From contig JAJTBS010000003.1 in assembly GCA_021286765.1 (NCBI GenBank), forward strand, positions 1-64,000: a stretch of DNA of 64,000 nt, read 5' to 3'. The notes beneath the pieces are model-generated. The model did not search any database, was not told the DNA's origin, and saw nothing but the letters and a program-made list of their open reading frames with translations. Shown piece by piece: positions 21,821-27,298 of the stretch (its first letter is position 1; every line of letters begins with the position of its first letter). A program made the position numbers and the translations under genes. This DNA comes from Holophagaceae bacterium. GTDB lineage: Bacteria > Acidobacteriota > Holophagae > Holophagales > Holophagaceae.

Positions 21821-21888
21821 ATTTGGACGCGGGCTTTCCAGATGGACCAGCGCTCCAGGTCATTGCCATTGCCGAGGGAGGAAGGATC

Positions 21889-23166
21889 ATGCAACTTTCG
21901 GGCTTGCGGTACGGCTCCAGGCTTCTGCAGCTGGTCGAGTTCCCTGCGGCGGAGTTCATCGATGGCTCCGCCACGAACCAGGAGATCCAGCAGTTCCTCG
22001 AAAAGCACCGGAAGCTGGTGGTGAAGCCGGCCTTCTATGGCGGCGTGGGGAAAAAGGGCAAGGCGGGGCTGGTGCGGGTGGTGAGCACCCTCCAGGAGGC
22101 CCTCCAGGCCAAGCGGGACCTGTTCTTCGCCCAGCACATTTATGGAAACAAGACGGTCACCGCCAACGGCGTGACCATGGAGGCCTTTGTCCCCTCTGAT
22201 CTGGAGGTCTACTTCAGCATCTCCAGCTCCAGCGTGCACCGCGGCCCGGTGTTCACCATCACCCCCTGGGGTGGCGTGGACATCGAGGACCTGCCGGCGG
22301 AGAAGAAGGCCGTGGTGGAGATCGACCCCTTCATCGGGATCAACGCCTTCGAGATCACCAACGCCCTCACGGACACGGGCTGCCCCGAGGCCTTCATCTC
22401 GGCCCTGGTCCAGCACCTGCCCAAGCTCTGGGAACTCTACGACGGCTACGGCCTGACCACCATCGAACTCAACCCCATCCGCGTGCAGCGCAAGGGCAAC
22501 CAGGTGCTGCCCGTGGCCTGTGACGTGAAGGCCAGCTTCGATCAGGACAACCCCGCCTGGAAGCGCATCGGCCTCCCGGACGCCCTCTTCCAGACGGAGA
22601 CCACGGCCTTTGAGGCCGACATCAATGAGCTGCGCACCTACCAGGGCCAGAGCGATGTGCTGGAGATGAATCCCAACGGCAGCATCATCCCCTTCATGTT
22701 CGGCGGCGGTGCCAACAGCGCCGGTACCGAGACCCTGGGCGAGGCGGCCATCTTCTCCTCCGACTTTGGAGGCAATCCGCCCTACGAAAAGATCTACGAG
22801 ATCAGCCGCATCGCCTTCGAGCACTGGTACGACAAGGCCAGCATGCTGCTGCTCATCGGTGGCAAGGCCAACAACACGGACATCTATGTGACCTTCAAGG
22901 GCGTGTTCGACGCCCTGCGAGACCACGTGTCCAAGGCTGGCTGGAAACCGTTGTACGTGGTGATCGGGCGGGGTGGGCCCAACGTCGTGAAGGGCATGTT
23001 CTATGCGAAGGACATCCTGGATCGCCTGCGCCTTCCCTACAAAGTGTTCGGCCACGACACCTCGATGATCCTCACGCTCGAATACGCGAAGAAGGTGGAC
23101 GAGTGGTGGCGGGCCGAGGGCGCTGAAGCCTACCGCAAGCAGATTGAAACCCAGGTCCGGGCCTAG
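21889..23166 (+). CDS. ATP-citrate lyase small-subunit-like protein (ATP-grasp)
   Basis: A 425-residue homologue of the N-terminal part of ATP-citrate lyase, the ATP-grasp and citrate-binding region. With the large subunit, ATP-citrate lyase turns citrate, CoA and ATP into acetyl-CoA and oxaloacetate. VVKPAFYGGVGKKGKAGLV is the ATP-grasp Lys/Gly region, and TTIELNPIRV the metal end. IPFMFGGGANSAGTETLGE matches the GGGAS citrate/phosphate site; GGKANNTDIYVTFKG and IGRGGPNVVKGM are also shared. The start is ATG 21889 after GGAGG. It lies nine bases before the large subunit. Succinyl-CoA synthetase beta is a more distant alternative. Confidence 0.85.
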   Translation: MQLSGLRYGSRLLQLVEFPAAEFIDGSATNQEIQQFLEKHRKLVVKPAFYGGVGKKGKAGLVRVVSTLQEALQAKRDLFFAQHIYGNKTVTANGVTMEAFVPSDLEVYFSISSSSVHRGPVFTITPWGGVDIEDLPAEKKAVVEIDPFIGINAFEITNALTDTGCPEAFISALVQHLPKLWELYDGYGLTTIELNPIRVQRKGNQVLPVACDVKASFDQDNPAWKRIGLPDALFQTETTAFEADINELRTYQGQSDVLEMNPNGSIIPFMFGGGANSAGTETLGEAAIFSSDFGGNPPYEKIYEISRIAFEHWYDKASMLLLIGGKANNTDIYVTFKGVFDALRDHVSKAGWKPLYVVIGRGGPNVVKGMFYAKDILDRLRLPYKVFGHDTSMILTLEYAKKVDEWWRAEGAEAYRKQIETQVRA

Positions 23167-23175
23167 GAGACAGCC

Positions 23176-25902
23176 ATGCGACGACTGAAGACAAAGCCCT
23201 TCCCCTACTACGTGGGCCTGCACTCCCTGGAAGAACTGGTCACCCGGGACCATCGCGTCTGCGTCATGAATATTCTGGGCAGCGAAAGCCGCAAGGTGAC
23301 GCCCGTGTCCCACGAGTACAGCGGGGGCAACATCGTGGCCGGCGTGCAGTATGGCCGGCGGGGCAGCCTGGAGACGAAGCTGGGGCCCATTCCCGTCTAC
23401 CGCAGCATCCGCGAGGTCATGGACAAGGGCATCGCCTTCGACATGGGCGTGGTCTACATCCCGCCCCAGGGCGTGTGCAAGGCCGTGTCGGAACTGGTGA
23501 CCCACAACGAGGCCCTCAAGCGCATCGTGATCGTCACGGAGAAGGTGCCGGCCCGCGACTCCCGCAACATCCGGGCCCTGTGCCAGGAGGCCGGCGTGGA
23601 TGTCATCGGCGCCAACTGCCTCGGCATGGCCAATGCCTGGGACCGGGTCCGCATCGGCGGCAGCCTGGGGGGCGACCACCCGGAGGAGACCCTGGCCAAG
23701 GGGTCCATCGCCATTCATTCGAACTCAGGCAACTTCACCACCACCATGGCCGAGTACCTCCGCACCGCGGGCTTCGGCATCAGCACGGCCGTGTCCAGTG
23801 GCAAGGATGTCTACATCCATTTCGCCCTGCCTGAGTTCCTGTACGCGGCACAGAACGATCCGCGCACCAAGGCCGTGGTGATCTACGTGGAGCCGGGCGG
23901 CTACTACGAGAAGATGGCCCTGGACTGGATCAAGGATCGCACCTTCGGCTTCACCAAGCCGATCATCGCCTGCGTCACCGGCCGCTGGAAGAAGAACATC
24001 ACCCGCGCATGCGGCCATGCCGGGGCCCTGTCGGGCAGCGGTGACGACGCCGAGAGCAAGGAGCGCTGGTTCGATGAGTACTTTGGCGTGGATGTCTTCG
24101 ATCCGAAGACCTGCCAGGTCAGCAAGCGCGGCGTGCGCGTCTCCAGCATCCAGTACATCCCGGATGCCGTGCGGGCGGTCTACGAGAAGATCGATGAAAA
24201 GCCCGATTTCCCGACCACGGGCGACCTGTCCCTGAAACTCTGGCTGGGCGATGCCCTGGTCAAGCTGCCGCCGGCGCTGGACCTCCCCATCAGCCAGGCG
24301 CCTGCGCCCTATGACCATCAGATCGTCGAGGTGAACAAGCAGGTCGGCGCCCACTACCTGCGGCAGAACATGGCGGACAAGTCCGGCGCCTCGAGGATGA
24401 GTCCGGAGACCCAGGTGGCGGAGCTGCACGGGAAGACCGTCTTGGATCTGTCCCTGAACACCCTGGAGGAGAACCTCTTCTTCTCGCTGGCCAAGGTGCT
24501 GCCGGAGAAGGCGGACGTCCCCACCCTGAACCTCATCCTGAATCTGTTCATGAAGATCGATGAGCGGCGCATGGAACTCATCGACGTGGGCCGCGCCAAT
24601 GGATGCCTTCCGAACGCCTGCCTGGCTTCTCAGATCGCGCTGGTCGGCGACAAAGACCTGCTGGCGAAATCCCGGGACCACTCCCGGTTCATCATCGACC
24701 TCATCCGCGAGTTTGGTCTGGATGAGCATACGAAGACCTTCCCGCCCGAGTTGGATGCCTATGTGGAGAAGCACCTCCTGCGGCTGGAGCCCTCCCGGAA
24801 AACCGACGTGTCCGAGTTGCTCTTCAAGGAGGTCAAGAAGTCCAAGAAGTCCTGCGTCGCCCTGAAGGTTTGCCAGCACATCATCGATCTCGCGGAGAAG
24901 CGGGGCCTTGAGATCCGGGACACCTACGAGTTCCTGCTGGCCACCATCGCCGTGTGCATCCTCTGGAACCCCATGCTGGAAAAGCGCATCAGCCGCCAGC
25001 TCGTGGAGGATGCCGTCACCTACTTCTACCTCATGTCCCGTGTGGTGGCCTATTCCGTGGTCAACCGGGAGCACAATCCCCACTGGAAGAAGCTGGTGGA
25101 CCAGAAGCTGTCCAACCTCAACCACAGCTTCACGGAGAATGCCTTCAAGGTTCTCTTCGGGCATGTTCCGACACCCCTCGAACTGCTGGAATTCCAGACG
25201 GTGCTGGGGCTCACCCTCACCAATGGGCCCGGGACCCTCTCCTCGAAAGGGGCGAAGGAGAGCGTCAGCGCCCGCAACGACATCTCCATGGCCTTCGTGG
25301 GCTTCCTGGCGAACACCGGCCGGGCCCACGGTGGCAACGGCTATGAGGCCATCGAGTTCCTGCTGGAGCAGTTCGAGGACGTGGCTCTGGCGGACCCCGG
25401 CGACCCGGCCCACGGATTGGATCTGAAGGGGATGGCCAACCGGGCCGCCCGAGCCTACGGCACCTACAAGAAGCAGGCCCAGGAAGTGGAGGATGTCGCC
25501 GTGAAGCGCATCCCCTGCATCAACCACCCGGTCTTCCGAGGCAACAAAATCAACGTGGATCCACGGGAACAGTTCGTGTCGGGCATGCTCGCCGAGAAGG
25601 GGGTCTACAACGCCTTCTGGGAGTTCTATCGCCTGCTGGTGAAGGAGCTCTATGCGGAAGGCGTGACCAAGAACGTCTTCTGCGTGAACGTGGATGCCGT
25701 CCTGGCGGTGATCACCTTGAAGCTGGTGTGGACGGACTACAAAGCTGGCCTGATCACCCTCCGCCAGATCCAGGAGCTGGCATTCACGCTCTTCCTGTTC
25801 GGCCGCACCATTGGTGCCACCGCGGAGATCGCCGACCACCGGGATCGCGGCCTGGACATGGATTGCCGCACGCCGGAGCGGGACCTGACCTACGTGCTTT
25901 AG
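23176..25902 (+). CDS. ATP-citrate lyase large-subunit-like protein with insert and altered lyase domain
   Basis: A 908-residue protein. Residues 1-330 match the CoA-ligase-like part, including the phosphohistidine H281 in CGHAGALSG and EPGG before it. Residues 650-908 match the citrate-synthase-like citryl-CoA lyase domain, ending RDLTYVL like human ISYVL. Known two-subunit bacterial large chains have roughly 600 residues; here about 200 extra, mostly helical residues separate the two parts. By eye, the His of human TADHGPAVSG is Asn (N683 in TLTNGPGTLS), while H784 (INHP) and D840 (NVDAVLAV) keep the other two catalytic positions. Lyase activity is therefore uncertain; it may stop at citryl-CoA or use another substrate. 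A bidirectional terminator follows. Confidence 0.82.
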   Translation: MRRLKTKPFPYYVGLHSLEELVTRDHRVCVMNILGSESRKVTPVSHEYSGGNIVAGVQYGRRGSLETKLGPIPVYRSIREVMDKGIAFDMGVVYIPPQGVCKAVSELVTHNEALKRIVIVTEKVPARDSRNIRALCQEAGVDVIGANCLGMANAWDRVRIGGSLGGDHPEETLAKGSIAIHSNSGNFTTTMAEYLRTAGFGISTAVSSGKDVYIHFALPEFLYAAQNDPRTKAVVIYVEPGGYYEKMALDWIKDRTFGFTKPIIACVTGRWKKNITRACGHAGALSGSGDDAESKERWFDEYFGVDVFDPKTCQVSKRGVRVSSIQYIPDAVRAVYEKIDEKPDFPTTGDLSLKLWLGDALVKLPPALDLPISQAPAPYDHQIVEVNKQVGAHYLRQNMADKSGASRMSPETQVAELHGKTVLDLSLNTLEENLFFSLAKVLPEKADVPTLNLILNLFMKIDERRMELIDVGRANGCLPNACLASQIALVGDKDLLAKSRDHSRFIIDLIREFGLDEHTKTFPPELDAYVEKHLLRLEPSRKTDVSELLFKEVKKSKKSCVALKVCQHIIDLAEKRGLEIRDTYEFLLATIAVCILWNPMLEKRISRQLVEDAVTYFYLMSRVVAYSVVNREHNPHWKKLVDQKLSNLNHSFTENAFKVLFGHVPTPLELLEFQTVLGLTLTNGPGTLSSKGAKESVSARNDISMAFVGFLANTGRAHGGNGYEAIEFLLEQFEDVALADPGDPAHGLDLKGMANRAARAYGTYKKQAQEVEDVAVKRIPCINHPVFRGNKINVDPREQFVSGMLAEKGVYNAFWEFYRLLVKELYAEGVTKNVFCVNVDAVLAVITLKLVWTDYKAGLITLRQIQELAFTLFLFGRTIGATAEIADHRDRGLDMDCRTPERDLTYVL

Positions 25903-25990: not shown

Positions 25991-27298
25991 CTACCGGCCG
26001 CCCTTCATGGCCCACTCTTCGAGCATGGCCGTGGTCACGGACTTGGGGCGCTCCAGGGCGTAGCCCAGGGCGCGGTCCCAGGTGATGTTGGCCAGCACGC
26101 CGATGGCGCGGCCCACACCGAAGAGCACGGTGTAGAAGTCGTAGTCGGTGAGGCCGTAATACCACTGGATGACGCCGCTCTGGGCATCGACGTTGGGCCA
26201 GGGGTTCTTGGTCTTGCCCTGCTCGGTGAGCACGCCCGGGGCCACGCGGTAGATCATGTTGACCAGCTTGAAGAGGGGGTCATTGGGCAGGTGCTTCTGG
26301 CAGAACTCCATCTGCGCGGTGTAGCGGGGATCGGTCTTGCGCAGCACGGCGTGGCCGTAACCGGGAATCACATGGCCGGAGTTCAGCGTGTCCCAGAGGG
26401 CCTGCTTGACGTTCTCCTCCGTGGGCTCGGCGCCATTGAGCTTCTTCTGGAAGTCCTTGATCCAGTCCAACACTTCCTGGTTGGCCAGGCCGTGGAGGGG
26501 GCCCGCGAGGCCGTTGAGGCCGGCGCTGAAGGAGTAGTAGGCATCGGACAGCGCGGAGGCCACCAGGTGGGTGGTGTGGGCGCTGACGTTGCCGCTCTCG
26601 TGGTCGCTGTGGAGGATGAAGTACATCCGGGACACATCGTCATAGGGCTTGGCGATGCCCATCATGTGGGCGAAGTTGGCGCCGAAGTCGAGGTCGTAGT
26701 TGCCGGGGATGATGTCCCCGTTCTTGTACTTGTAGCGGTAGATGAAGGCGGCGATCTCGGGCAGCTTGGCCAGCAGGTCGCAGGCATCCTCGTACATCGA
26801 GTCCCAGTAGTCGTTCTTCTTGAGGCTGTGGTAGAGCTTGTTGAACTTGCTCTCCTTCTGCATGGCGAGCACCGCCGAGGAGAGCATCACCATGGGGTGG
26901 CTGTCCTTGGGCAGGGCGCGCAGCACGTCGAAGACGTAGGCGGGCACCTTGGCGCGGGACTTGAAATCCTGATGGACTTCTTCGGCCTCGGCGGCCGTGG
27001 GGATCTCGCCGGTGAGCATGAAATACCAGAAGGACTCCACCGTCGGGTACTCGGCGCCCGCAAGCTTGGGCAGAGCCGCGAAGGTCTCGGGGATGTTCTT
27101 GCCGCGGAATCGGATGCCCTCCTGGGAGTCGAGGTAGGAGAGATCGGTCACCAGACACTTGATGTCCCGCGCGCCGCCGATGCACTGGTCGATGGTGACC
27201 TCGTCGATGACGACCTTGCCGAACTCCTTCAGGAGCCGGGTGGTACGGGGCCGATGCTCCTCGATCTTTTCCTTCAGACGGGTTTTGAGGCGGGTCAT
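25991..27298 (-). CDS. gltA: Citrate synthase, eukaryotic (mitochondrial) type
   Basis: Condenses acetyl-CoA and oxaloacetate to citrate. The 435-residue protein resembles mitochondrial rather than typical proteobacterial hexameric enzymes. The catalytic triad is visible in HSDHESGNVSAHTTHLV (first His), VIPGYGHAVLRKTDPRY (second His) and PNVDAQSGV (Asp). SAGLNGLAGPLHGLANQEV and RALGYALERPKSVTT are near-identical to mitochondrial patterns. Such enzymes are known from Geobacter and relatives. The start is ATG 27298 behind CAGGAG. Its gene faces the ATP-citrate-lyase-like pair, whose reaction would be the reverse. Confidence 0.96.
   Translation of the reverse strand: MTRLKTRLKEKIEEHRPRTTRLLKEFGKVVIDEVTIDQCIGGARDIKCLVTDLSYLDSQEGIRFRGKNIPETFAALPKLAGAEYPTVESFWYFMLTGEIPTAAEAEEVHQDFKSRAKVPAYVFDVLRALPKDSHPMVMLSSAVLAMQKESKFNKLYHSLKKNDYWDSMYEDACDLLAKLPEIAAFIYRYKYKNGDIIPGNYDLDFGANFAHMMGIAKPYDDVSRMYFILHSDHESGNVSAHTTHLVASALSDAYYSFSAGLNGLAGPLHGLANQEVLDWIKDFQKKLNGAEPTEENVKQALWDTLNSGHVIPGYGHAVLRKTDPRYTAQMEFCQKHLPNDPLFKLVNMIYRVAPGVLTEQGKTKNPWPNVDAQSGVIQWYYGLTDYDFYTVLFGVGRAIGVLANITWDRALGYALERPKSVTTAMLEEWAMKGGR

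Follow-up and report, generated by a model that had tools for sequence, protein, structure and literature searches.

A gene pair in a Geothrix-like member of the Holophagaceae very probably encodes an enzyme that splits citrate, through citryl-CoA, into acetyl-CoA and oxaloacetate, namely a type II ATP-citrate lyase (ACL) in which the lyase domain has been duplicated. We infer its substrate, reaction, direction and role. The "insert" that lengthens the large subunit appears, on the evidence of sequence and predicted structure, to be a second, decayed version of the lyase domain of this family, repeated in tandem. While the name of the family was already known, its domain anatomy, with the duplication, is apparently new.

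The gene pair and its locus

The window, i.e. the whole stretch of 64,000 nucleotides that was analysed, is part of a 3.15-Mb genome. The large subunit is encoded on the forward strand by an ORF of 908 amino acids (positions 23176 to 25902), which starts with ATG and contains no internal stop codons. Full-length homologues occur in Geothrix, Ignavibacteriales, Bacteroidota, Spirochaetia, other Acidobacteriota, another phylum and on Pseudomonadota plasmids, and the ORF is therefore not a product of chance. Upstream, separated by a gap of 9 bases, lies the gene of the small subunit (21889 to 23166, forward strand), a CcsA-like protein of 425 amino acids with an ATP-grasp and a citrate-binding domain. 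Its ORF opens at a TTG codon at 21823; the conserved start is the ATG at 21889 (MQLSGLRYGS), as supported by relatives that begin with MQLSGL or a close variant.

A search of the genome found a single pair, the other matches to the large subunit spanning the synthetase domain only, and the citrate-binding domain occurs once. Convergent to the pair, and outside the enzyme, lies the gene of a Si-citrate synthase (25991 to 27298, reverse strand; NCBIfam NF007128, 785.7 bits). It is the sole full citrate synthase in the genome, and in those Geothrix loci that were examined a gene of this kind likewise adjoins the pair. The protein is of the eukaryote-like Si type, with 574.5 bits against TIGR01793, which is below the cut-off of that model.

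Domain layout of the large subunit

Residues 16 to 345 (23221 to 24210) form a CoA-binding and phosphohistidine domain that resembles the alpha subunit of succinyl-CoA synthetase and is nearest to CcsB in both a PDB profile search and a tree. A linker of low pLDDT follows (residues 346 to 393; 24211 to 24354), with a mean identity of 61% among long forms over residues 346 to 395. The remainder consists of copy 1, a degenerate lyase (pseudo-CCL) domain (residues about 394 to 640; 24355 to 25095), and copy 2, the putative catalytic citryl-CoA lyase or citrate-synthase-like domain (residues about 641 to 908; 25096 to 25899), all on the forward strand. Pfam Citrate_synt matches residues 619 to 887 (1.7e-7), and hhalign aligns copy 2 with the C-terminal half of citrate synthase (CS) at 1.5e-9, in agreement with structural superposition.

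The original prediction gave the protein about 200 extra residues. This figure holds against the family's own short form (ORFs of 694 and 710 amino acids), which the long form exceeds by about 200 to 215 residues; against canonical AclA (611 to 624 amino acids), the excess is about 290. A long helical insert had also been proposed to separate the halves of the protein. The extra region is real, but it appears to be of another kind, the lyase domain present a second time in degenerate form. Unexpectedly, the insert is therefore a known ACL domain after all.

A duplicated lyase domain

In hhalign comparisons, copy 1 (residues 394 to 640) aligned with the short-form domain across 240 columns (score 108.9, E 1.3e-15) and with copy 2 across 203 (score 82.3, E 1.5e-11). 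Controls with 60 column-shuffled profiles scored no higher than 21.4 and 21.0, respectively, and reversed profiles gave no match between copy 1 and either the short form or copy 2. Moreover, a model of the short form picks out the beginning of copy 1 in individual long-form sequences, with i-E values down to 3.8e-8. Ten helices are present in copy 1 (430 to 625) and ten in copy 2 (652 to 890) of the predicted model, in the same order, as read by eye from the helix list and not from a computed superposition. Such kinship between the two halves is detectable in sequence in this family, unlike that between the halves of CS, whose N- and C-terminal halves matched each other, with ten sequences, at an E value of 0.011.

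The full-length model had an overall pLDDT of 69 with low confidence in the N-terminal domain, and was used for the C-terminal half only; a model of residues 371 to 908 reached a pTM of 0.82. The C-terminal half superposed on 3hwk_E (VIA Z 30.7, 344 of 367 residues) and on B. subtilis CS (VIA Z 29.7, 344 of 363 residues). Overall, the predicted model displays a complete CS fold, with Z values of 27 to 31 across nearly whole chains, and Foldseek agrees. Copies 1 and 2 together are thus predicted to fold like one CS protomer. Chains of human ATP-citrate lyase (ACLY) and citryl-CoA lyase were absent among the best 50 structural matches listed, a result that is silent on their kinship.

This superposition on a complete CS, together with a weak resemblance between residues 396 to 520 and CS residues 62 to 149 (E 2.7e-4), would also fit an extra region that came from a CS gene, for instance through recombination with the neighbouring one, and not from an internal duplication. 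We consider such an origin improbable. Copy 1 is closer to its own family (1.5e-11 and 1.3e-15) than to CS (4e-4 for the N-terminal half and 0.003 for the C-terminal half) or to AclA (0.048), and residues 451 to 640 alone match copy 2 at 1.1e-10 and CS only at 0.019. A structure-based reading of the insert as an N-terminal lobe borrowed from CS was dropped because the profiles favour the family's own domain.

The two copies differ sharply at the active site. The counterparts in copy 1 of N683, R797 and D840 of copy 2 are Ile461, Val545 and Glu585, those of H718 and H784 fall in gaps, and of the catalytic-site residues compared only R877 is kept (as Arg622). Judged from these positions, the lyase domain in copy 1 is dead. 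No published account of the duplication was found in the literature that could be searched, which was incomplete.

Active-site residues

For pig CS, we take the relevant positions and their roles to be those of His238, the catalytic triad His274/His320/Asp375, Arg329, Arg401 and Arg421. When aligned with CS by hhalign, N683 (25222 to 25224) falls on the His of HADHE (His238 of pig CS, His900 of human ACLY), H718 (25327 to 25329) on the His of GPLHG (His274), H784 (25525 to 25527) on GYGHAV (His320; His975 of ACLY) and D840 (25693 to 25695) on NVDA (Asp375; Asp1026 of ACLY). R797 falls on DPR (Arg329) and R877 on Arg401, and both are invariant among the relatives; R898 is likewise invariant and lies near the place of Arg421 by spacing only. 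In the synthetase part, the phosphohistidine H281 (GHAGA; 24016 to 24018) is His in all 63 relatives, as had been expected.

The prediction of a lost lyase-domain histidine was right about N683 and incomplete about its consequence. The position is Asn in every one of the 62 relatives that have it, long and short forms alike, and the substitution is thus a trait of the family and not a local loss. His occupies this position in the citrate and methylcitrate synthases (8/8) and canonical AclA sequences (11/11) that were fetched, as well as in the solved citryl-CoA lyase 6hxp (IDHG). No other His takes the place of His900, the site being occupied by N683 itself. H784 and D840, which had been presumed kept, are indeed His in 62/62 and Asp in 61/61. 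What the prediction missed is H718, through which the triad stays intact: H718, H784 and D840, all invariant, supply the complete set His274/His320/Asp375, and loss of the catalytic triad is ruled out by this mapping. The pattern is swapped relative to AclA, with His where AclA has Phe (PRFGG), as in citryl-CoA lyase, and Asn where AclA has His. By its alignment, N683 would stand at a substrate-contact site where other members have His.

Kinship of the synthetase parts

The N-terminal domain of the large subunit matched CcsB best in the PDB profile search (6hxq_A, 1.1e-41), followed by succinyl-CoA synthetase (6.5e-31) and AclA (6hxj, 4e-15). In a 49-row tree, long and short type II forms together with CcsB were split from SucD and AclA by a branch with 99/95 support, although CcsB is represented there by one long-branched row and the tree is rooted at its midpoint. 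The small subunit contains Citrate_bind (9.6e-17) and ATP-grasp_2 (9.8e-15) in Pfam, and its best PDB match is CcsA, the large subunit of citryl-CoA synthetase (6hxq_B, 1.3e-34). Its motifs GGKANNT, with the CcsA-style ANNT signature, and GRGGPN, with RGGPN as in ACLY, are kept across the family. In the small-subunit tree, the type II clade (100/100) stands apart from the canonical clade that includes human ACLY (100/100), and CcsA falls in no supported place. Both subunits lie outside the SucD and SucC clades.

Membership in AclA was rejected, given that both subunits fall in separate clades and that the His of DHGPA is Asn throughout the family (62/62); type II is thus distinct from AclAB and no variant of it. 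The phylogeny that had been proposed as a check accordingly separates the enzyme from AclA and SucD and puts it on the side of CcsB. As for the suggestion of a new subtype, the lineage is separate, but it has already been named.

Comparison with known systems

Type II ACL was reportedly postulated by Huegler and Sievert in 2011 for Mmc1_3638/3639 of Magnetococcus MC-1 and for tubeworm symbionts. In Magnetococcus MC-1, citrate is cleaved without a canonical ACL, and two ORFs of low similarity were postulated to be a type II ACL (PMC6783814); the enzyme was also reported in tubeworm symbionts (PMC3522073, PMC6315080). The primers published for type II ACL encode the peptides VAKEEWF and NGFEAIA. 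The corresponding [KR]E.WF occurs in 53 of 63 family members and NG[FY]EAI in 24 of 63 (KERWF and NGYEAI in the present protein), and neither occurs in AclA or CS. By these primer translations and the published description, the family corresponds to the type II ACL that had been postulated. The two share adjacent small and large genes that are far from canonical ACL in sequence, and the published enzyme likewise has a two-gene make-up and occurs in bacteria that lack canonical AclAB. The carriers on record are autotrophs, whereas those described here are a lineage of Fe(III) reducers and the plasmids of heterotrophs. No domain anatomy of type II ACL was found in the literature searched.

CcsAB and Ccl of the Aquificaceae provide the nearest synthetase domains, and Ccl shares the His of the H718 type (AHGG). 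Nonetheless, Ccl is a separate protein of 268 amino acids with DHG in place of TNG and no duplicated domain, and CcsAB has no fused lyase domain, the lyase being fused in this family. AclAB and ACLY have the same order of ATP-grasp, CoA/phosphohistidine and lyase domains, but AclA belongs to another clade, contains DHGPA and PRFGG instead of TNGPG and AHGGNG, and is without the duplicate. CS shares the triad and, along its entire chain, the fold; it differs in having His238 where Asn stands here, and the domain is here fused to a synthetase.

Short form and distribution

Three Spirochaetota genomes carry a short form without the duplicated stretch, two of them as the complete ORFs noted above and one ended by a contig edge. 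The short forms have TNGPGTIS, HGGNG and GHPVF, with NVDAA or NLDAA visible in both complete ones, and in two of the three genomes a CcsA-like small subunit lies directly upstream. Because the duplication is internal, an order in which the short form preceded the long one is the simpler.

The nearest homologues of the long form, 85 to 91% identical, belong to Geothrix and Holophagaceae, and the gene was found in 13 of 37 searched genomes of the genus of the window (this genome and fragments counted). The long form also occurs in 5/296 genomes of the Bacteroidota group, 4/198 of Spirochaetota and 15/82 of another phylum (some as fragments), and on 19 Pseudomonadota plasmids, at an identity of 41 to 46%. 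The plasmid large subunits are annotated "CoA-binding protein" or "hypothetical". A MAG titled Myxococcales (L024) carries an ACL 86% identical to that of Geothrix, and its title or bin is probably wrong. The Holophagaceae MAG GL140_6_metabinner_71 contains two large-subunit copies on separate contigs (L009, L014), perhaps from mixed strains.

On plasmids, neighbouring genes encode TctA/TctB, the tricarballylate proteins TcuA/TcuB, 4-oxalomesaconate tautomerase, PrpF, a 2-hydroxycarboxylate transporter and acyl-CoA thioesterases, which points to tricarboxylates as substrates; other plasmid relatives have MFS and DctA transporters nearby. No consistent sign of a pathway emerged from the neighbourhoods in Ignavibacteriales, Bacteroidota and Spirochaetia, except for a monomeric isocitrate dehydrogenase in one locus (L019).

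Proposed mechanism and alternatives

In the proposed mechanism, the small subunit would join with the N-terminal domain of its larger partner to act as a citryl-CoA synthetase: ATP would phosphorylate H281, the phosphate would pass to citrate, and attack by CoA would yield citryl-CoA. The C-terminal half would then split citryl-CoA at a site of the CS type (H718, H784, D840, R797 and R877), with N683 in the substrate-contact place. This half probably arose when a short lyase domain was duplicated in tandem within the lineage, after which copy 1 lost its catalytic residues and stayed as a scaffold, and copy 2 kept them. The reaction would be reversible in principle.

The earlier suggestion that the enzyme may not cleave citryl-CoA is weakened by the retention of these five residues and by the tricarboxylate-uptake genes around the plasmid relatives. 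The chief counterpoint is that N683 replaces the His of every other superfamily member examined. Citryl-CoA might then be made here while the C-terminal domain is structural or allosteric, any cleavage occurring at the synthetase site. A precedent is human ACLY, where work on ACLY-D1026A favours an allosteric function of the domain that resembles CS, and cleavage was argued to occur in the synthetase domain (PMC10115795). Such an arrangement seems unlikely in the present family, where the triad and the arginines are invariant in at least five bacterial lineages, more strictly than a pure scaffold would predict, and copy 1 illustrates what lost constraint looks like. A substrate other than citrate, such as methylcitrate or an acid from the breakdown of tricarballylate or aconitate, would suit the PrpF, 4-oxalomesaconate tautomerase and tricarballylate genes of the plasmid neighbourhoods; we give it little credence, as the small subunit has motifs common to CcsA and ACLY and the literature treats the bacteria with type II ACL as cleavers of citrate.

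The direction of the reaction is the point on which an alternative carries most weight. The enzyme might serve mainly to synthesize citrate with a gain of ATP during acetate oxidation, or belong to a reductive TCA cycle, a reading that is conceivable though less probable than citrate cleavage. Desulfobacter postgatei has been reported to run its ACL in the oxidative direction. The genome contains candidate ferredoxin-dependent 2-oxoacid oxidoreductases, and in tubeworm symbionts type II ACL lies within reductive TCA clusters (PMC6315080). On the other hand, a dedicated CS adjoins the pair, the plasmid relatives sit in uptake clusters, and the presence of the gene in only 13 of the 37 genus genomes searched suggests an accessory role.

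For Geothrix, we regard use of citrate as a substrate as the most likely role, with moderate confidence, since CitF, a subunit of classical citrate lyase, had no match in the genome. In Geothrix fermentans, whose genome carries the large-subunit gene (L023), CitF gave only a weak partial match below the cut-off, and this species can ferment citrate (PMC8787282, citing Coates 1999). Other roles are possible, the genome having its own CS and the oxidoreductase candidates.

A transition from citryl-CoA lyase to CS may well be visible in this living family, with the unduplicated state extant, and we lean towards this reading. If true, the duplication and its living unduplicated relative would provide a testable model for the rise of CS from citryl-CoA lyase, and the fixed Asn at N683 represents a sharp target for mutational work. 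Published work takes type II ACL as an indicator of the reductive TCA cycle; the occurrence of the enzyme on plasmids of heterotrophs, beside tricarboxylate-uptake genes, calls for caution in inferring autotrophy from it. The acyl-CoA thioesterase genes near the ACL on Gemmobacter and Microvirga plasmids (L111, 10702 to 11088; L110, 2911 to 3288) could, by hydrolysing acetyl-CoA, draw citrate cleavage in the forward direction.
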